DNA of 64,000 nt, from contig NZ_AP029018.1 in the NCBI RefSeq assembly GCF_037076525.1, positions 62,001 to 126,000 on the forward strand, written 5' to 3'. This stretch comes from Selenomonas sp. TAMA-11512 (lineage in GTDB: Bacteria > Bacillota > Negativicutes > Selenomonadales > Selenomonadaceae). Under the pieces are notes generated by a model. It did not search any database. It was not told the DNA's origin and worked only from the letters and a program-made list of their open reading frames with translations. The position numbers and the translations under genes are program-made. Shown in pieces: positions 13,023-21,635 of this stretch (positions are counted from its first letter, which is position 1; each line of letters opens with the position of its first letter).

Positions 13023-13158
13023 TTTTACGTATTCGACTTATAGGAAAGGATAACATATAATCAAGTGTAAGTAAAGGGTCTGTGAGGACTCTTTCAAAGG
13101 AGCGGATGCCGAGGGCATCCATCACTGGGTGTTGTATATCATCGGGGAGGGGACTCTT

Positions 13159-14559
13159 TTGAGCAAGGGAGTACGATGTTTTCTGACGGCGGGACTGATC
13201 GCCGTCCTCTGGTTTCTGCCGGTGCCCGAGGGGCTGACGCCGGCTGCATGGCATCTGTTCGCGATCTTCGCGGGCGCGATATTGGGCTTCGTCCTGCAGC
13301 CGTTCCCGCTGGGGACGGTTGCGCTCGCGGCGATCACGTTCGCGGCGCTGACGAATACGATCAAGCCCGCAGAGGCGCTTGCGGGATTCAGCAATACGGT
13401 CATCTGGCTGATTGTGTCGGCGTTCCTGTTCGCGCAGGGCTTTATCAAGACGGGGCTCGGGCGGCGGATTGCTTACTGGCTCATCTTGAAATTCGGGTCG
13501 AGCAGCCTGAAGCTTGCTTACACACTTGTCCTGAGCGACTTCATCATCGCGCCTGCTACACCGTCAAACACGGCGCGCTCGGGTGGAATCCTCTTTCCCA
13601 TCGTGCGCAGCCTCGCCTCGGTCTTCGGCTCGGAGCCGGGCGGGACGGCGCGAAAGATCGGCGCGTTCCTGCTCGTCGTGTCCTTCCAGGTGGATGCGCC
13701 GATTGCCGCGGCCTTTCTGACGGCGTGTGCACCGAATCCGCTGATGGCGGAGCTGGCACGGGATACGGCGGGCATCGAACTCTCGTGGGGACTATGGGCG
13801 ATGGCAGGCATCGTACCCGTCCTGCTGTCGATGATCGTTCTGCCCTACGTGCTCTACAAGCTCTATCCGCCCGAGATTCAAAAGACGCCCGAGGCACAGG
13901 CGCTTGCCCGTGAAAAACTCGCAGAGATGGGCAGGATGACGCGCGATGAGAAAATCATCTGCAGCATATTCGTCGGCGCGCTTCTTCTCTGGAGCACGTC
14001 GGGCTATACGGGCGTGAACGCGACCATCGCCGCTCTTCTCGGCGTAACGGCAATGCTTTTTACGGGCGTCCTCACATGGGAGGACGTGCTGAAGGAGAAG
14101 GGGGCGTGGGACGGCATGATGTGGATGGGCGGCATCGTGAGCCTCGCGGGCGCACTGAACAAGATCGGCTTCATCCCGTGGTTCGCCGCGAGTGTCACAG
14201 GCGCGATGACGGGTGTTGCATGGGGGCTGACACTCGGCATTCTCTTCCTCGTCTACCTCTACAGTCACTACGGCTTCGCAAGCCTCTCGGGGCACGCGAC
14301 GGCGATGTATGCGGCGTTTCTCGCCGTCGCCGTTGCGGGAGGTGCACCTCCCTATCTCGCCGCACTCGGGCTCGCCTTCCTGTCGAACCTCATGGCGGGA
14401 CTGACGCACTACTCCACGGGAGCGGCGCCCATCTACTTCGGAGCGGGCTATGTGACGCAGGGGCAGTGGTGGCGGCTGGGCTTTTTCTGCTCCGTCATCA
14501 ACATCATCATCTGGATCGGCATCGGCTCTGTCTGGTGGAAGATCCTCGGGATTTGGTAA
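13159..14559 (+). CDS. ttdT: DASS-family anion transporter, probable tartrate/dicarboxylate antiporter
   Basis: The 466-residue membrane protein starts at TTG 13159 behind GGGGAGGGG. It belongs to the CitT/TtdT/SodiT1 group of divalent anion transporters. Signatures include NTVIWLIVSAFLFAQGFIKTGLG near residue 85, SDFIIAPATPSNTARSGG near 130 and GHATAMYAAFLAVA near 385. About twelve helices are present. It lies 45 bases before ttdA, and the trio copies the E. coli ttdA-ttdB-ttdT set. That supports tartrate uptake in exchange for succinate. Citrate or malate remains possible. Confidence 0.75.
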   Translation: MSKGVRCFLTAGLIAVLWFLPVPEGLTPAAWHLFAIFAGAILGFVLQPFPLGTVALAAITFAALTNTIKPAEALAGFSNTVIWLIVSAFLFAQGFIKTGLGRRIAYWLILKFGSSSLKLAYTLVLSDFIIAPATPSNTARSGGILFPIVRSLASVFGSEPGGTARKIGAFLLVVSFQVDAPIAAAFLTACAPNPLMAELARDTAGIELSWGLWAMAGIVPVLLSMIVLPYVLYKLYPPEIQKTPEAQALAREKLAEMGRMTRDEKIICSIFVGALLLWSTSGYTGVNATIAALLGVTAMLFTGVLTWEDVLKEKGAWDGMMWMGGIVSLAGALNKIGFIPWFAASVTGAMTGVAWGLTLGILFLVYLYSHYGFASLSGHATAMYAAFLAVAVAGGAPPYLAALGLAFLSNLMAGLTHYSTGAAPIYFGAGYVTQGQWWRLGFFCSVINIIIWIGIGSVWWKILGIW

Positions 14560-14604
14560 CCATGTGGTTGGTAACTCTGTGTATTATATAAAGGAGAGAT
14601 TTCT

Positions 14605-15504
14605 ATGACAAAGGTTGAAGCCTCGGAGCGCATGACCGATGTGCTCGCGAAGTTCGTGGCGTACACGGGCAAGCGGCTGCCGGACGATGTGCGCGCAAAG
14701 ATCGCGGAGCTCGCCGACGAAGAGGACGCGCCGCTCGCGAAATCCATCTATGAGACGATGGAGAAGAATCAGGAGCTTGCGGTGAAGCTGAACCGACCGA
14801 GCTGTCAGGATACGGGCGCGGCGCAGTTCTTTTTGAAATGCGGGGCGAACTTTCCGTACATGGGCGAGATGGAGGAGATTCTGCACGAGGCGGTCGTGCA
14901 GGCGACGGCGGACGCACCTCTCCGGCACAATGCAGTAGAGACGTTCGACGAGTTCAATACGGGCAAGAATGTCGGAAAGCAGATTCCGTCGATTTTCTGG
15001 GAGATCGTCCCGGGCCGTGACGACATCGAGATCCACACGTATATGGCGGGCGGCGGCTGTACGCTGCCGGGCAAGGCGATGGTGCTGATGCCGGGCGAGG
15101 GCTATGAGGGCGTGACGCGCTTTGTCCTCGATGTCATGACGAGCTACGGGCTGAATGCCTGTCCGCCGCTCCTCGTCGGCGTAGGCGTCGGTACGTCGGT
15201 CGAGGTCGCTGCGCTCCACTCGAAGAAGGCGCTCATGCGTCCAATCGGTTCGCACAACTCGAACCCGCGCGCTGCCAAGATGGAGCAGCTGCTCGAGGAC
15301 GGCATCAACGCGATCGGACTCGGTCCGCAGGGGCTCATGGGCAAGCACTCCGTGCTCGGCGTCAACATCGAGAACAGCGCGCGCCATCCGTCCGTGATCG
15401 GTGTCGCCGTGAATGTCGGCTGCTGGTCGCACAGGCGCGGACATATCGTCTTTGACAGGAACCTCGACTATAAGATTCTCTCGCATACGGAGGTGGATTT
15501 CTGA
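14605..15504 (+). CDS. ttdA: L(+)-tartrate dehydratase alpha subunit
   Basis: The 299-residue protein is the large subunit of an iron-sulfur hydro-lyase that turns L(+)-tartrate into oxaloacetate. It aligns by eye with E. coli TtdA in several blocks: [14 protein letters not shown] near residue 67, APLRHNAVE near 110, [13 protein letters not shown] near 150, [17 protein letters not shown] near 185, and [21 protein letters not shown] near 265. The cysteines in these blocks are the expected 4Fe-4S ligands. A two-subunit class I fumarase is the close alternative. Fit to TtdA/TtdB and the transporter partner favour tartrate. Confidence 0.85.
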
Positions 15505-16115
15505 TGGAGAAGAAAGTTCTGACAACCCCGATTCAGCCCGAAGATCTCAAAGATATCAACGTGGGCGACGTGATCTACCTAACAGGCTATCTCACAACCT
15601 GCCGCGACGTGGCGCACCGCCGCGTCATCGAGGAGGGGAGGAAGCTCCCCGTCGACGTGAAGGACGGCGCAATTCTCCACGCGGGGCCCATCATTCGGAA
15701 GCTCGGCGAGGACAAATATGAGATGGTTACGGTCGGTCCCACGACAAGCATGCGCATGGAGAAGTTCGAGGAGGCGTTTATCAAGGAGACGGGCGTGCGC
15801 CTCATCATCGGCAAGGGCGGCATGAAGGACGGCACGATGCGCGGCTGCCGCGACCACAAGGCACTCCACTGCGTCTTTCCCGCCGGCTGCGCCGTCGTCG
15901 CCGCCGAGTGCGTCGAGGAGATCGTGGATGCGAACTGGCTCGACCTCGGGATGCCCGAGACGCTCTGGACGTGCAGGGTGAAGGAGTTCGGCCCTCTCAT
16001 CGTCTCCATCGACAGCCACGGGCGCAACATCTTCGAGGAGAACAAGGTCGTCTTCAACGAGCGCAAGGAAAAGGCGTGTGAAGGGATCTGTAAGCAGGTC
16101 GGGTTTATCAAGTAA
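15504..16115 (+). CDS. ttdB: L(+)-tartrate dehydratase beta subunit
   Basis: The 203-residue small subunit matches E. coli TtdB closely. Shared stretches include [36 protein letters not shown] and [15 protein letters not shown]. It completes the active site of the heterotetrameric dehydratase in the cytoplasm. The ATG overlaps the ttdA stop by one base, so the two are coupled in translation. A hairpin at 16130-16164 ends the operon. Confidence 0.88.
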
Positions 16116-16188: not shown

Positions 16189-17301
16189 TTACTTCCAGAC
16201 GGATTCGGCGATCTCCCGGATGAAGCGCAGCTTGTTCCACTGCTCCTCCTCCGTCAGGATATTGCCTTCTTCCGTCGAGGAGAAGCCGCACTGCGGGCTG
16301 AGGCAGAGCTGATCGAGCGGGACGTGCTTCGCCGCCTCGTGGATGCGTGCAATAACATCCTCGCGGTTTTCGAGCGCGCCCGACTTCGACGTGACGAGTC
16401 CGAGCACGACGCGCTGATCCCTGATGAAATCGAGCGGTGCAAATCCGCCGGAACGGTCGGAGTCGTACTCGAGGAAGAAGCCGTCGATTTTGCAGCCGCC
16501 GAAGAGAATCTCCGCGACCGGCTCATAGCCGCCGGAGGAGAACCATGTCGAACGGAAATTGCCGCGGCAGATGTGCATCGTGATCGTCATGTCGGCGGGC
16601 TTTGCCTCGAGGACGCGGTTGATCATCGCGACGTAGGTGCGCTCGATGCGGTCGAGGTCGAAGCCGCGCGCCTCGTACGCCGCGCGCTTTTCCGGATCGC
16701 AGAATTCGCCCCATGATGTATCGTCGAGCTGCAGATAGCGGCAGCCCTCCTCGTAAAACGCGCGGATTGCCTTCTGATAGGCGAGGGCGATATCCTCGAA
16801 CAGGGCATCCTCATTCCCGTAGCGCGGGATGGGCGCGTAGTCTGTCGCACGCACGCAGCAGATGAGGTGCAGCATGCTCGGGGAGGGGATCGTCATCTTC
16901 GCGATCGAATCGCCCGCGAGATTGTTCAAAAAGCGGAAGTGGTCGAGGAACGGGTGTGCGCCGAAGTCCACCTTGTCCGTGATGCGCACGGTCGCCGCCT
17001 TCGGCTGCACGCCCTTGAATGCGACCGACCAATGCGCCGCGCCGACCTCCTCGATGCCGTCGAGTTCCGCGAGGAAGTCGAGATGCCAGTAGCGGCGGCG
17101 AAACTCTCCGTCCGTGACGGCGCGGAGACCGACCTCCTTTTCCTTGGCGACGAGGCCGCGGATCGCCGCATCCTCCGCCTGCCGCAGCTCCTCCGCCGAG
17201 GCGTTTCCGCTCGTGTATGCTTCGCGCATCTTCATCAGCGCGGCGGGGCGCAGGAAGCTCCCCACAATATCATAGCGAAAGGGCGCTTTCATGTTTGTCA
17301 T
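16189..17301 (-). CDS. MetE-like cobalamin-independent methyltransferase (YxjG/YxjH type)
   Basis: The 370-residue protein corresponds to the C-terminal catalytic half of methionine synthase II, the form known as YxjG/YxjH in Bacillus. The start is ATG 17301, behind GGAGGAATTGCC. Zinc ligands are visible as HxC in MHICRGN near residue 230 and the later cysteine in SPQCGFSS near 330. An N-terminal RYDIVGSFLRP and DGEFRRRYWHLDFL also fit. It should transfer a methyl group to homocysteine or a related thiol. The first 32 bases overlap the YefM gene upstream, so the two are probably co-transcribed. Confidence 0.85.
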   Translation of the reverse strand: MTNMKAPFRYDIVGSFLRPAALMKMREAYTSGNASAEELRQAEDAAIRGLVAKEKEVGLRAVTDGEFRRRYWHLDFLAELDGIEEVGAAHWSVAFKGVQPKAATVRITDKVDFGAHPFLDHFRFLNNLAGDSIAKMTIPSPSMLHLICCVRATDYAPIPRYGNEDALFEDIALAYQKAIRAFYEEGCRYLQLDDTSWGEFCDPEKRAAYEARGFDLDRIERTYVAMINRVLEAKPADMTITMHICRGNFRSTWFSSGGYEPVAEILFGGCKIDGFFLEYDSDRSGGFAPLDFIRDQRVVLGLVTSKSGALENREDVIARIHEAAKHVPLDQLCLSPQCGFSSTEEGNILTEEEQWNKLRFIREIAESVWK

Positions 17302-17545
17302 GGCAATTCCTCCTTGCTGCACGTCCCGCGCGCAGCTGCTCGATACCCTCCACGATGTGGGCATGGTTGCGCCGATCGCTCATCAGAAAGACATTCTCCA
17401 TGAGATTGTTATAGCTCTCGAGGCTCATCAGGACGACATTCTCCTCATTCCGGCGCGTCACGATCACGGTCTCCGCGTCACGAGCTACCGCATCGCAGTA
17501 GCTCTTCAGATTGCTGCGCAGGGTCGAGAAATTCACCGCTACCAT
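17270..17545 (-). CDS. YefM/Phd-type antitoxin without a visible toxin
   Basis: The 91-residue protein begins MVAVNFSTLRSNLKSYCDAV and continues VIVTRRNEENVVLMSLESYN, the DNA-binding half of YefM. Family antitoxins end near residue 85 and are followed by a YoeB-type toxin. Here the last 20 residues (RAGRAARRNCHDKHESALSL) are unlike the family, and the next gene is the MetE-like enzyme. A ribosome binding site AAAGGATGTG and a perfect palindrome lie upstream. It may be a stranded antitoxin or an adopted local repressor. Confidence 0.8.
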   Translation of the reverse strand: MVAVNFSTLRSNLKSYCDAVARDAETVIVTRRNEENVVLMSLESYNNLMENVFLMSDRRNHAHIVEGIEQLRAGRAARRNCHDKHESALSL

Positions 17546-18168: not shown

Positions 18169-19374
18169 ATGGTTCCATATGAGGCCTTGCTGGAGAGGCT
18201 GAACGCGCAGCTTCGTATCCACGGTCATCTCCTCGGCGTCGTGTCGGGGGCGGGGCTTACGGCGCGGTACGCGATGATGGGCGGTGCGGATTTCCTGCTT
18301 GCGCTCAGTTCCGGGCGCTGCCGCATAATGGGACGCGGTTCTTATGCGGGTTATTATTGCTACGGCAACAGCAACGAGATCACGATGGAGTTCGGTACGC
18401 GGGAGCTGCTGCCCATCCTGCCCGATGCGCCGGTTCTCTTCGGCATCGCGGCGAGCGACCCGTTCATCCATCTCTACGAGTATTTGAAGGAGATCAAGGC
18501 GCGCGGCTTCTCGGGCGTGACGAATTTTCCGACGATGGCTCTGATTGACGGGAAATTCCGTATGGCTCTCGAGGAGGACGGGAACAGCTACGAACGAGAG
18601 GTCGAGGCGATCGGGCTTGCGCATCATCTGGGACTCTTTACCGCCGCCTTTGTGACGAAGGAGGAGGAGGCTGACGCCATGCTTCGCGCCGGCGCCGATG
18701 TGATCTGCGTGCATCTGGGGCTGACCAAGGGCGGATTTATGGGGGCGAAGAAGTACATCTCCATCGCGGAGGCAAAGCATATCAGTGATCGAATCTTTGC
18801 ACTCTGTGCGCGGATGCGTCCGGAGGTGATCCGCATGATCTACGCGGGACCTGCAAATACGCCGATGGATGTGGACTATCTCTATCGTCATACGGCGGCG
18901 CAAGGTTACATCGGCGGGTCGACGTTTGATCGGATTCCTGCCGAGAAGGTAATCTTACAGACAGTGCGTGCATTCAAAAATGCGGGAACGGGGGGCTTGT
19001 CGGCGGCGAATATTACTGCGGAGGCGAACGCGGCGGATGCGGTGGACTTCGTAAAGAACTACGTGCACGAGCACTACGGGCGGGAGATCCGTCTGCGGGA
19101 TCTGGCGATCGTGCTCCACATATCGCCGTCTTATCTGAGTACACTCTTTAAGCAGGACACGGGTATGAGCTTCACAAGTTTTCTCCTGTCCTATCGCATG
19201 GAGCGTGCGCGCGCCCTGCTTGCAGAGGGCAGACTTTCCTGCAGGGAGGTGGCGGAGCACTCCGGCTATCCGGATTACGCGCAGTTCTCGAAGATGTTCC
19301 GCAAGTATCAGGGGATGTCACCGAGTGATGTACTGGCGTCGGATATAAACACAAGTCCGAATTCACGGAATTGA
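18169..19374 (+). CDS. AraC-family regulator fused to a Tm-1-type TIM-barrel sensor domain
   Basis: The 401-residue protein starts at ATG 18169, 8 bases after GGGAGGTG. Residues 1-280 form a PF09370 TIM-barrel domain (GAGLTARYAMMGGADFLL, SSGRCRIMGRGS, NFPTMALIDGKFRMALEE) clearly paralogous to the protein at 20750. Residues 300-401 are an AraC helix-turn-helix pair (LAIVLHISPSYLSTLFKQDTG, then REVAEHSGYPDYAQFSKMFR). Where the stand-alone protein has VICHGGPI, this one has MIYAGPAN, so a conserved histidine is lost. It is best read as a ligand sensor derived from the pathway enzyme. It should control the two genes that follow. The ligand is unknown. Confidence 0.88.
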   Translation: MVPYEALLERLNAQLRIHGHLLGVVSGAGLTARYAMMGGADFLLALSSGRCRIMGRGSYAGYYCYGNSNEITMEFGTRELLPILPDAPVLFGIAASDPFIHLYEYLKEIKARGFSGVTNFPTMALIDGKFRMALEEDGNSYEREVEAIGLAHHLGLFTAAFVTKEEEADAMLRAGADVICVHLGLTKGGFMGAKKYISIAEAKHISDRIFALCARMRPEVIRMIYAGPANTPMDVDYLYRHTAAQGYIGGSTFDRIPAEKVILQTVRAFKNAGTGGLSAANITAEANAADAVDFVKNYVHEHYGREIRLRDLAIVLHISPSYLSTLFKQDTGMSFTSFLLSYRMERARALLAEGRLSCREVAEHSGYPDYAQFSKMFRKYQGMSPSDVLASDINTSPNSRN

Positions 19375-19398
19375 CAGAAATAAAATATAAACACAAGT
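19343..19398. promoter_or_regulatory. Direct-repeat operator candidate for the AraC-type regulator
   Basis: The exact 14-mer ATATAAACACAAGT occurs at 19343-19356 and 19385-19398, 42 bp apart, or four helical turns. The pair ends about 100 bases before the UPF0261 gene; the first copy lies in the end of the regulator gene. AraC proteins usually bind such direct repeats. Confidence 0.6.
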
Positions 19399-19498
19399 TT
19401 CTAAAATTAAAACACATATACGTTCAGCCGAAAAAATGCTAGAATGTACTTGTAAGCAACATAGTCTCATATTTCTTCTGTCGAAAAGGAGGGATTCG

Positions 19499-20725
19499 AT
19501 GAAAACAGTTGCACTTGCCGGTACGTTCGACACGAAACGCGAAGAGCTCCTCTATGTGAAGGGGCTGCTCGAAGCGCTGGGACTGAACGTGTTTGCGGTC
19601 CATACGGGCGTGTTCGACGCCGGCGTCTCCGTGGACGTGGCGAATACACAGCTCGCCGCAGCGGTCGGAGAGGACATGGCGGCAATCGCACAGAAGCGGG
19701 ATCGGGCAAAGGCGACGGCGGTTCTTTCGGAGGGGCTTGCGAAGGTTCTGCCGCAGCTTTACGCAGAGCGGCGGTTCGATGGCGTCCTTTCGTTCGGCGG
19801 CTCCGGAGGCACGGCACTCGTCACGCCCGCCATGCGCGCGCTGCCGATCGGGACGCCGAAGGTCATGGTATCGACGATGGCGTCGGGGAATGTCTCCCAG
19901 TATGTCGGCACAAGCGACATCATCATGATACCGTCCATCGTCGATGTGGCGGGGCTGAACGAGATATCGCGCACGATCTTCCGCAATGCGGTGCTCGTGA
20001 TCGCAGGCCTTCTGCGGCTAAAGGATGAACTGCCCGCCGAGGAGGGATCGAAGAAGCCGCTTGTCGCCGCAACGATGTTCGGCGTCACGACGCCCTGTGT
20101 GGATTTTGCCCGCGAAGCATTGGAACGACGCGGCTATGAGGTGCTCGTGTTTCATGCGACGGGGACGGGCGGCAAGACAATGGAGAGCCTGATCGCGTCC
20201 GGGTATTTCAAGGGCGTGCTTGATCTGACGACGACGGAGTGGTGCGATGAACTCGTGGGCGGTGCTCTCGCCGCAGGGCCCCATCGCTCTGAGGCGGCGG
20301 TGCTGGGCGGTGTGCCGCAGGTCGTCTCCGTGGGCGCCGTGGACATGGTGAACTTCGGCGCGCCGGAGACGGTGCCCAAGCAGTTTGAAGGGCGCAATTT
20401 TTATCGGCACAATCCGACGGTGACGCTCATGCGCACGACTGCCGAAGAGAATGCCGCCATCGCGGCGAAGCTGGCGGAAAAGCTCAACATGGCAAAGGTC
20501 GGAGGGCGGAGCGTTCTGCTCCTGCCGAAGAAGGGGGTCTCCATGCTTGATGCCGAGGGGCAGGCATTCTACGGGCCGGAGGAGGACGCGGCGCTCTTTG
20601 GTACACTGCGGGAGAAGATTGACCCTGCAAAGACGGAGATCGTCGAGATGGACTGCCATATCAACGATCGGGAATTTGCAGAGACGGCGGCGGAGCGCCT
20701 CGTGCAGATGATGGAAGCAAAGTGA
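19499..20725 (+). CDS. UPF0261 / Tm-1-like ATP-binding protein
   Basis: The 408-residue protein starts at ATG 19499, behind AAAGGAGGG. It is a full-length PF06792 protein: VALAGTFDTKREELLYVKGLL at the N-terminus, FDGVLSFGGSGGTALVTPAMR near residue 100, and VLDLTTTEWCDELVGG near 240. In tomato the Tm-1 virus-resistance protein has this domain fused to the TIM-barrel type found in the next gene. Here the halves are separate neighbours 24 bases apart. The tomato domain binds ATP, and the bacterial reaction is not established. It should be cytoplasmic. Confidence 0.9.
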   Translation: MKTVALAGTFDTKREELLYVKGLLEALGLNVFAVHTGVFDAGVSVDVANTQLAAAVGEDMAAIAQKRDRAKATAVLSEGLAKVLPQLYAERRFDGVLSFGGSGGTALVTPAMRALPIGTPKVMVSTMASGNVSQYVGTSDIIMIPSIVDVAGLNEISRTIFRNAVLVIAGLLRLKDELPAEEGSKKPLVAATMFGVTTPCVDFAREALERRGYEVLVFHATGTGGKTMESLIASGYFKGVLDLTTTEWCDELVGGALAAGPHRSEAAVLGGVPQVVSVGAVDMVNFGAPETVPKQFEGRNFYRHNPTVTLMRTTAEENAAIAAKLAEKLNMAKVGGRSVLLLPKKGVSMLDAEGQAFYGPEEDAALFGTLREKIDPAKTEIVEMDCHINDREFAETAAERLVQMMEAK

Positions 20726-20749
20726 TTGTAGTGAAACGGAGGAACAGAG

Positions 20750-21580
20750 ATGTTTAGAAAATCCAGACAGGAGATTCTGCAGGACTTCAAAAATCAGGTA
20801 AAGGAAGGCAAGATCCTGGTCGGCGTCGGCGCCGGCACCGGAATCACGGCGAAGTGCAGCGAGAAGGCCGATGTGGACATGCTCATCATCTACAATTCAG
20901 GCCGTTTCCGTATGGCGGGGCGTGGATCTCTCTCCGGGCTTCTATCGTACGGGGATGCGAACCAGATCGTGCAGGAGATGGGGCGCGAGGTGCTGCCCAT
21001 CGTGAAAAAGACGCCGGTGCTCGCGGGCGTGTGCGGAACCGACCCGTTCCGTGTGATGGATCTCTTCCTTGCCGATCTCAAAGCGCAGGGATTCAACGGC
21101 GTGCAGAACTTCCCGACGGTGGGGCTGATCGACGGCAAGTTCCGTGCAAATCTCGAGGAGACGGGTATGGGCTACGGTCTCGAGGTCGATATGATCCGCA
21201 TGGCGCATGAGCTCGATATGCTGACCTGCCCCTATGTCTTTGATCCGGAGCAGGCGAAGGCAATGGCGGAGGCCGGTGCGGACATTCTCGTCGCGCATAT
21301 GGGTCTGACAACGAAGGGCTCGATCGGCGCGGAGACGGCCGTGACGCTTGACGACTGCTGCGACAGGATTCGCGCGATTATCAAAGCGGGACGCAGTGTG
21401 CGCAGCGACATCATGGTCATCTGCCACGGCGGTCCCATCGCCGACCCCGAGGATGCGGCGTACGTCATCAAGCACGTTCCGGAGATCGACGGATTCTTCG
21501 GCGCCTCCTCCATCGAGCGTCTCGCCTCCGAGCGCGGCATGACGACGCAGGCGGCGGCATTCAAGGCGATTCGAAAATAA
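20750..21580 (+). CDS. Tm-1-type TIM-barrel protein (PF09370, PEP-hydrolase-like)
   Basis: The 276-residue protein matches the second half of plant Tm-1. Landmarks are [65 protein letters not shown] and [14 protein letters not shown], all on a TIM-barrel plan. It begins behind CGGAGGAACAG and ends in a strong terminator. It probably works together with the UPF0261 protein, since plants and fungi fuse them. Family names mention phosphoenolpyruvate hydrolase, but I see no direct evidence for that substrate here. Confidence 0.88.
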
Positions 21581-21596
21581 AAAACTGTTTCCGTGA

Positions 21597-21635
21597 AGGG
21601 TGTCGTGCTTTTTGCAGAGCACGGCACTCTTTTAT
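21597..21635 (+). terminator. Terminator of the Tm-1-like operon
   Basis: AGGGTGTCGTGCT pairs with AGCACGGCACTCT and is followed by TTTATTTATT. Confidence 0.8.

Follow-up and report, generated by a model that had tools for sequence, protein, structure and literature searches.

How a barrel of an enzyme-like family came to serve as the apparent sensor of a transcription factor, upstream of a second barrel of the same family, is the question raised by a three-gene locus of Selenomonas sp. TAMA-11512, whose genome is a single contig of 2.59 Mb. The window analysed here is the 64,000-nucleotide stretch of that contig (NZ_AP029018.1) from position 62,001 to 126,000, and coordinates given without a locus label are those of the window. 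The locus encodes REG, a PF09370 barrel fused to an AraC-type helix-turn-helix (HTH), followed by UPF, a UPF0261 protein, and BAR, a stand-alone PF09370 barrel. A preliminary description of the sequence had named the same three adjacent genes, and Pfam bears this out. The answer that we consider probable is that UPF is a kinase, that BAR is an enzyme acting on the product of UPF, and that REG is an activator whose barrel is a catalytically dead sensor. The features on which this reading draws are as follows.

18169-19374, + strand: REG, PF09370 barrel (putative sensor) fused to an AraC-type HTH (Pfam, AlphaFold model, best PDB match 2p10)
18163, + strand: alternative GTG start of REG
18841-18843, + strand: REG Tyr codon (residue 227 from 18163, 225 from 18169), opposite BAR His226 (alignment, model)
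19499-20725, + strand: UPF, UPF0261 (Tm-1-like) protein of 408 aa (Pfam; PDB matches 3wry, 3wrw and 9mpy; model)
20750-21580, + strand: BAR, stand-alone PF09370 barrel of 276 aa (Pfam)
21425-21427, + strand: BAR His226 codon, in CHGGPI (alignment)
21595-21632, + strand: intrinsic terminator-like hairpin 3' of BAR (hairpin search, folding)

Residues 9-273 of REG match PF09370 (E 1.3e-91, 307 bits against a cut-off of 33.8), and the AraC-type HTH lies at its C-terminus within residues 302-391 (PF12833, 77.1 bits against 33.6). BAR matches PF09370 with E 4e-125 and 416.8 bits against the cut-off of 33.8, and UPF carries both UPF0261 domains (PF06792, 199.6 bits; PF23189, 315.9 bits). The start of UPF was moved from 19436 to 19499 because a strong ribosome site, AAAAGGAGGG, stands ahead of the latter. 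The hairpin after BAR has 17 pairs and a minimum free energy of -27.3 kcal/mol (z -5.9); three terminator-like sites of that kind were found against 3.4 expected in shuffles. The closest named relative of REG is that of Centipeda periodontii, with 81% identity.

The regulator barrel lacks an otherwise invariant histidine

BAR reads VICHGGPI where REG reads MIYAGPAN, and in this alignment BAR His226 stands opposite Tyr227 of REG counted from 18163, or Tyr225 counted from 18169. The preliminary description had drawn attention to this difference, and it is real: in trio loci, the window included, the residue is His in 66/66 BAR proteins and Tyr in 66/66 REG proteins, which is far more than chance. 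Of the two sequence blocks that the two barrels were said to share, NFPT--LIDGKFR stands as quoted, while SGR-R-MGRGS should read SGR-R--GRGS, the residue in question being A in BAR and M in REG.

We compared a wider set of 83 free barrels (66 from trios and 17 others, from Negativicutes, rhizobia, other alphaproteobacteria, Streptomyces, Vibrio, Halalkalicoccus and a RuBisCO-like operon) with 77 regulator barrels (66 AraC-type and 11 sigma54-type). This set omits the free barrels of Selenomonas that lack His, the lone barrel of locus L055, short partial barrels, four late-found trios, L156, L160, and the barrels of the window's further relatives other than L036 and L039. Thirty-seven columns are invariant in the free barrels, 36 of which are kept by at least some of the regulators; with the four most divergent free barrels included, His226 (83/83 free barrels, 0/77 regulators) is the sole invariant column lost in all regulators. 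It is replaced by Tyr in 68, Glu in 6, Gly in 2 and Ala in 1. The next least kept columns are Phe249 (6/77) and Tyr162 (10/77), and 16 of the 37 are kept in 77/77 regulators, including G31, D43, R54, N71, E145, G228, G251, S253, R257, E261 and K272. A recount over every fetched locus, with near-copies included and some genomes counted twice, took in the rows omitted from the wider set and set aside five pieces of fewer than 200 profile positions. It gave Tyr in 95/95 AraC-fused barrels (His in 0/95), His in 0/11 sigma54-type barrels and His in 111/120 free barrels; the exceptions among the latter are seven with Cys, of the Selenomonas ruminantium type and from five genomes, and two with Tyr, both of them REG frames interrupted ahead of the HTH (L053, L124).

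The active sites of TIM barrels lie at the C-terminal ends of the strands. In the AlphaFold model of REG (predicted local distance difference test, pLDDT, 83.9, and 81 for residues 221-230), strand 7 comprises residues 221-225 and ends C-terminally in Tyr225, counted from 18169; the equivalent of His183 closes strand 6. The model thus places the changed position at the barrel mouth. Alignment and model together support the view that the REG barrel is a paralog of the BAR barrel without the otherwise invariant histidine of the barrel mouth, most other invariant residues being kept. The idea of a sensor that looks like a dead copy of the pathway protein is upheld to that extent; a recent loss within this locus is not, the trees described below indicating an old lineage.

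The 16 columns kept in all 77 regulators could also be taken to mean that the REG barrel has stayed catalytic, with Tyr or Glu in the place of His, which would make REG a bifunctional enzyme-regulator. The replacement of His226 is not of one type, being Y, E, G or A, and we judge this alternative very improbable.

The sensor lineage is old and has two kinds of output

A careful tree was built from 78 barrel domains, with the trio barrels thinned at 80% identity and the long L006 branch left out. A single branch parts all regulator barrels from all free barrels (support 99/97, and present in 100% of 200 bootstrap trees). The AraC-type regulator barrels form one clade (100/97), and the monophyly of the sigma54-type barrels is not resolved (approximately unbiased test, p 0.5). 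On a quick 79-row tree the state of residue 226 needs two changes, one at the split between free and regulator barrels and one in the Selenomonas free barrels. One early loss of His226 is the simpler explanation because the tree puts the regulator barrels together on one side; for the same reason we set aside the alternative of independent losses in the AraC and the sigma54 regulators. As judged from these trees, His226 is missing from an old sensor lineage and was not lost recently in the window locus.

The output domains found on regulator barrels are either AraC or sigma54/Fis-type. The sigma54 regulators of the Negativicutes loci L036 and L039 have a Walker A motif and GAFTGA or GSFTGA, and in both loci a -24/-12 word with one mismatch stands just before UPF (L036:4266, L039:9405); these are two of the 16 such words in the 3.94 Mb of strand sequence scanned, and the remaining 14 lie elsewhere. 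In the alphaproteobacterial sigma54-type regulators, a pattern search found a GAFTGA-like word in 0/9 and no Walker A motif in 7/9. Because the former and mostly the latter are missing, these nine proteins are unlikely to act as standard sigma54 activators. The older name of PF09370, "TIM-barrel signal transduction", suggests that signalling was once suspected for this family.

A candidate operator and promoter lie between REG and UPF

Tandem repeats run from the 3' end of REG toward UPF and are followed by a putative -10 element.

19345-19356, + strand: candidate operator copy 1, ATAAACACAAGT, inside the REG 3' end
19387-19398, + strand: candidate operator copy 2, ATAAACACAAGT, 42 bp after copy 1
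19408-19416, + strand: candidate operator copy 3 (proximal), TAAAACACA, 21 bp after copy 2
19440-19445, + strand: -10 element TAGAAT, 32 nt past the start of the proximal copy

ATAAACACAAGT was spotted by eye in the window first. The word used for counting, WTAAACACA with up to one mismatch allowed and both C held constant, was chosen after repeats had been seen in other loci. In the REG-UPF stretches of 65 other loci, with near-identical loci retained, this word has 92 sites on the + strand in 15.6 kb, or 5.9/kb, and 7 on the - strand; the remaining 988 kb of the same loci has 0.138/kb on the + strand and 0.194/kb on the - strand. At least one site is found in 59 of the 66 loci, window included, and at least two in 29. 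In 37 of 44 cases the spacing of sites within a locus deviates by no more than 1 from a multiple of 21 bp, against 6.3 expected. For the position of the -10 element similar loci were removed, which left 49, and the window copy at 19408 was set by hand. Counted from the last site, T stands at +32 in 43 of these loci, A at +33 in 41 and T at +37 in 32. We read these T and A columns as a -10 box at a fixed distance from the last operator, and the arrangement of tandem direct repeats by the -35 region with a fixed -10 distance has, as a sequence pattern, the geometry of a class II activator of the AraC family. On this evidence it is highly likely that REG directly activates UPF and BAR.

The exact 12-mer ATAAACACAAGT occurs twice in the 2.59-Mb genome, both times at the trio locus. 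With at most one mismatch there are 10 matches genome-wide (the two exact ones here and 8 others) against 8 for a reversed control, and because of these counts we do not claim a wider regulon. Autoregulation of REG through WTAAACACA was also considered and is unsupported, a site lying within 300 bp upstream in 5 of 79 REG genes.

Conservation of the trio in other genomes

The sample of loci comprised the best 80 of 228 relatives, from a scan of named bacterial genomes using 16 aligned regulators; those with a stated group are all Bacillota. Trios were counted from six-frame profile and whole-genome searches, long antisense open reading frames (ORFs) masking the trios of L069, L079, L107 and L145. 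By the six-frame profile searches REG, UPF and BAR co-occur in 69 of the 80 loci. The order is REG, UPF, BAR on one strand in 66 of the trios and UPF, BAR, REG in two, and UPF is in two pieces in one; the gap between REG and UPF is 2-5 kb in three trios (L076, L078, L081). The 11 loci without a trio include four of Selenomonas ruminantium, one decayed locus (L105) and four on short contigs that stop soon after REG or UPF (L101, L104, L111, L120); the remaining ones are L124, with a REG frame without HTH, and L146, with REG and BAR only.

A second sample consisted of 25 stretches from relatives of the window, some of their genomes being shared with the 80 loci. Twelve hold an AraC trio, one of them with a split REG, and two hold a sigma54-fused barrel with UPF and BAR. 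UPF and BAR stand without a fused regulator in five, among which L059 ends just upstream of UPF; four lack UPF and hold two barrels, of which one is REG or a remnant of it; and two have a single gene only. PF09370 was matched in 30 of the 150 genomes of the search of relatives, and over the cut-off in 25. The co-occurrence supports the view that REG belongs with the UPF-BAR pair. REG is a strong but replaceable partner of that pair, because some pairs have no fused regulator and TetR or GntR genes lie near others. The preliminary description would have been troubled by related loci that keep the pair and lack the regulator; such loci do occur, in 5 of the 19 stretches of relatives that hold UPF and BAR, and in most the regulator accompanies the pair.

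Most of the genes flanking the Bacillota trios are not conserved. The exceptions are families of DASS-type transporter, arylsulfotransferase and DUF1097 (the last in 5 loci), for each of which one member was checked by Pfam. An arylsulfotransferase-like gene lies near Lachnospiraceae-type trios in six loci (L071, L076, L078, L081, L082, L124), five of which also have a DASS-type transporter, and sugar ATP-binding cassette (ABC) transporter genes lie near several rhizobial UPF-BAR pairs.

Partial PF09370 proteins of about 166-209 aa (L061 8058-8648, L149 2216-2806, L068 4254-4883, L153 4620-5120) lie near UPF0261 or regulator genes of rhizobia, Azospirillum and Qingshengfaniella and are a possible third component. 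In another locus (L038 874-10124) a UPF0261 and PF09370 pair lies near a gene for an RraA-like aldolase (Pfam), and from inspection by eye we take its neighbours to include transport genes of the tripartite tricarboxylate type and a gene for a PrpR-like regulator.

Proposed mechanism

In the mechanism that we propose, UPF and BAR would both be enzymes of the same short pathway, their transcription would be driven by an activator-dependent promoter near 19440, and REG would be made separately, upstream of them. The REG barrel, a sister of BAR, would be unable to do the chemistry owing to the change of His226 to Tyr, and would keep much of the conserved mouth (R54, N71, G228, G251, S253, R257). 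Its ligand, most likely the substrate or the phosphorylated intermediate of UPF and BAR, would fill the barrel, and the ligand-filled regulator would bind the tandem WTAAACACA repeats 21 bp apart, with the proximal copy by the -35 region, and recruit RNA polymerase to UPF and BAR by class II AraC-type activation. UPF would probably phosphorylate a small molecule with ATP, and BAR, as a TIM barrel of the phosphate-binding type, would convert the product. That the ligand of REG belongs to the pathway of UPF and BAR we consider quite likely. The sequences support the gene set, the operator, the promoter geometry, the sensor lineage and the loss of His226 in every regulator barrel examined; we infer the activation by ligand, the identity of the ligand, the kinase activity of UPF, the reaction of BAR and the catalytic role of His226.

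Possible chemistry of UPF and BAR

The best PDB match of the REG model is 2p10 (Z 37.2, 268 residues, 3.5 A), followed by phosphate-handling barrels, namely 4ml9, whose title mentions a conserved phosphate site (Z 20.9), indole-glycerol-phosphate synthase, tryptophan synthase alpha and Pdx1. By analogy with these, G228, G251 and S253 may form a phosphate grip. The model of UPF (pLDDT 88.5) matches the N-terminal region of Tm-1, 3wrw, with Z 44.0 and rmsd 3.3 over 387 residues, and 9mpy with Z 32.9, rmsd 6.9 and 32% identity in the structural alignment. The title of 9mpy describes Saro_1862, a UPF0261 domain protein, with acetovanillone bound. The literature searched neither names Saro_1862 nor gives a reaction for UPF0261 or PF09370.

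A protein very close to 9mpy (E 9e-173) is encoded on plasmid pBAR1 of Sphingomonas bisphenolicum, a bisphenol degrader (L155 7581-14350), where the order of products is thioesterase, BKACE, UPF0261, biotin carrier, biotin carboxylase, carboxyltransferase-type protein and HAD phosphatase-type protein. In the Hpe pathway, as given in parts of PMC9618137 and PMC12167813, the order is kinase HpeHI, carboxylase HpeCBA and phosphatase HpeD, and the carboxylase acts on phosphorylated ketones only. By this analogy UPF0261 would stand in the kinase position of a hydroxyacetophenone-type operon on pBAR1. A PPDK_N (HpeI-type) match is absent from pBAR1, the search covering the plasmid only. The possibility that HpeHI is itself a UPF0261 homolog was rejected on a part of PMC12167813, and UPF has no phosphoenolpyruvate (PEP)-synthase-like ATP-grasp or swivel Pfam match, unlike the HpeHI/PpsAB dikinase. 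Homologs of VceA and VceB were not found in N. aromaticivorans F199 according to a part of PMC11837543, an absence that may leave room for Saro_1862 and proves nothing.

Because of the ligand of 9mpy and the kinase position on pBAR1, the chances appear evenly balanced that UPF0261 proteins are ATP-dependent small-molecule kinases. That BAR acts on a phosphorylated product is a somewhat more tentative proposal. The two families are reported to coevolve (r 0.886, Mirrortree; part of PMC5028733).

It is also conceivable that UPF and BAR handle phenolic or aryl-ketone compounds and that these are what REG senses. The acetovanillone in 9mpy, the carboxylase, phosphatase and BKACE operon in which the relative of that protein sits in a bisphenol degrader, and the arylsulfotransferase and DASS transporter genes near some Lachnospiraceae trios all point in this direction. 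However, the sphingomonad UPF0261 is a distant branch with 32% identity to the window UPF, no PF09370 lies within 9 kb of the UPF0261 gene of pBAR1, and the scanned genes around the window trio are not aromatic-pathway genes. We regard a pathway for aromatics as unlikely, though it deserves serious thought.

Rewiring in Selenomonas ruminantium

In the four Selenomonas ruminantium loci (L095, L097, L098, L102) a free barrel with Cys at position 226 precedes REG, and the FGASS segment of this barrel is not recognisable by eye. UPF0261 was absent from 3/3 whole genomes of this species searched (those behind L095, L097 and L098); of five further genomes searched alongside them, that of the decayed locus L105 is the sole one to lack it as well. 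The loss of UPF0261 in Selenomonas ruminantium thus accompanies the loss of His226 from BAR. Operator copies follow REG in 4/4 of these loci, and the fixed -10 was found in L097, L098 and L102. The operator precedes genes for tagaturonate reductase, a galactarate-dehydratase-family protein, glucuronate isomerase and 2-keto-3-deoxy-6-phosphogluconate (KDPG) aldolase and an alpha-galacturonidase-like gene (scanned on L056), and in L095 and L102 it precedes a cluster led by KDPG aldolase. From their appearance we take the next genes in the latter clusters to encode 2-keto-3-deoxygluconate (KDG) kinase and, in L095, also KduI and KduD. With these operators in front of hexuronate operons and UPF0261 missing from the genomes searched, the sequences suggest that the sensor and its operator can come to serve a different pathway after the enzymes have been lost.

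The same arrangement raises the possibility that REG senses a hexuronate or a 2-keto-3-deoxy sugar acid such as KDG or KDPG, UPF and BAR then being an alternative kinase and lyase. KDPG aldolase is present in both Selenomonas ruminantium arrangements, UPF0261 is missing there while the free barrel is degenerate, and the sugar ABC transporter genes near several rhizobial pairs fit as well. The evidence from operators comes from one species group only, in which the ligand preference may have shifted with the rewiring, and the mostly unconserved flanks of the Bacillota trios also speak against it. This explanation is in our view possible and on balance improbable.

Weighing the kinase, enzyme and sensor reading

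Several points weigh against the proposal that UPF, BAR and REG form a kinase, an enzyme and their sensor. The operator word was fixed after similar repeats had been seen and counted over near-identical loci, and 7 of the 66 loci have no site. UPF0261 occurs without PF09370 within 7-9 kb in L155, L157, L158 and L159 (six-frame search), so UPF and BAR are not obligate partners. The neighbouring genes point two ways, to aromatics (pBAR1 and the arylsulfotransferase) and to sugar acids (Selenomonas ruminantium and the rhizobial ABC transporters). There are 33 columns of conserved difference between BAR and AraC-type REG, and the uniqueness of His226 depends on the inclusion of the four most divergent free barrels: when these are left out, 12 columns (Y48, M55, A70, A92, G96, Q119, N134, M140, P161, H226, A252, Q267) are near-invariant across the remaining 79 and missing from the regulators.

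These last counts, with 33 columns on one comparison and 12 parting the main free type from all regulators, are what would be expected if the change of His to Tyr were ordinary paralog divergence and REG sensed an unrelated signal, perhaps via another site. Across the most diverse free barrels, however, His226 alone is invariant yet lost in every regulator, and it disappeared a second time in free barrels whose genomes lack UPF0261; we judge this explanation improbable. A wider reading is the full combination in which UPF0261 is an undescribed kinase family, PF09370 converts the phosphorylated product, a sister barrel without His226 senses with sigma54 or AraC class II output, the sensor is re-used for hexuronates, and Tm-1 arose from a metabolic kinase and its partner enzyme. 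Taken jointly we put this forward as doubtful.

Neighbouring genes and a second pair

Upstream of the trio, in an apparently separate unit, window positions 13129-16115 hold a DASS transporter followed by the alpha and beta subunits of L(+)-tartrate dehydratase. A methionine-synthase-II-like gene (16189-17304, - strand) adjoins a small ORF (17367-17545, - strand) that, by eye, is presumably a YefM-type antitoxin.

A second UPF0261 gene and a third PF09370 gene lie at 1.73 Mb of the same genome (C1; L006 4779-10058), in one operon with genes for a RuBisCO-like protein, an Amidohydro_2 protein and a metallo-beta-lactamase-fold protein. In this pair the PF09370 protein keeps His226 and differs in other blocks, and no fused barrel regulator was found near the pair in the 16-kb stretch read.

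Comparison with known systems

The plant proteins Tm-1 and Tm-1-like are fusions of UPF0261 to PF09370, the same two families as UPF and BAR. In contrast, the window has them as separate genes (19499-20725 and 20750-21580) with a dedicated regulator, and no antiviral role is implied. Both families are found in bacteria, archaea, fungi and plants, and the plant fusion is a derived state that stems from two transfers, according to a part of PMC5028733; the term "split Tm-1" used in the preliminary description is therefore misplaced.

Among solved structures the comparison is with 2p10, the PF09370 barrel Mll9387 of Mesorhizobium, which belongs to the same family as BAR and REG and whose enzyme name, "putative phosphonopyruvate hydrolase", comes from the title only; PEP_hydrolase, the Pfam label of PF09370, is likewise a name. 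Plasmid pMLa of the same strain carries a PF09370 gene together with UPF0261 and a sigma54-type regulator barrel, and that gene is presumably Mll9387. The sigma54/Fis-fused PF09370 proteins lie on the same side of the tree as REG, lack His226 and are found near UPF and BAR, but their output domain is different; a functional paper on them was not found in the literature searched, nor were PF09370 as an AraC sensor, the operator, the two output types or the rewiring. With the HpeHI/Acv hydroxyphenylethanone pathway the likeness is in the order of carboxylase and phosphatase, which the sphingomonad UPF0261 operon matches (parts of PMC12167813 and PMC9618137), whereas HpeHI is a PEP-synthase-like two-component dikinase (part of PMC12167813), a Pfam match that UPF does not have.

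Transcription factors with an enzyme fold for a sensor are already known. In BzdR the enzyme domain is shikimate-kinase-like and not a TIM barrel. BzdR is a regulator derived from an enzyme, as stated in a part of PMC3602430, and, as proposed for REG, it has an enzyme domain recruited as the effector-binding domain of a transcription factor. Unlike in BzdR, the sister enzyme of REG, BAR, is the product of its presumed own target gene. A tomato virus-resistance protein belongs to these two families. As REG probably recognises a compound of the pathway itself, the sensor and its mapped operator would offer a direct route to that compound. These barrels would form a natural series from enzyme to sensor, with a presumed active sister next door, two output machineries and one rewiring.

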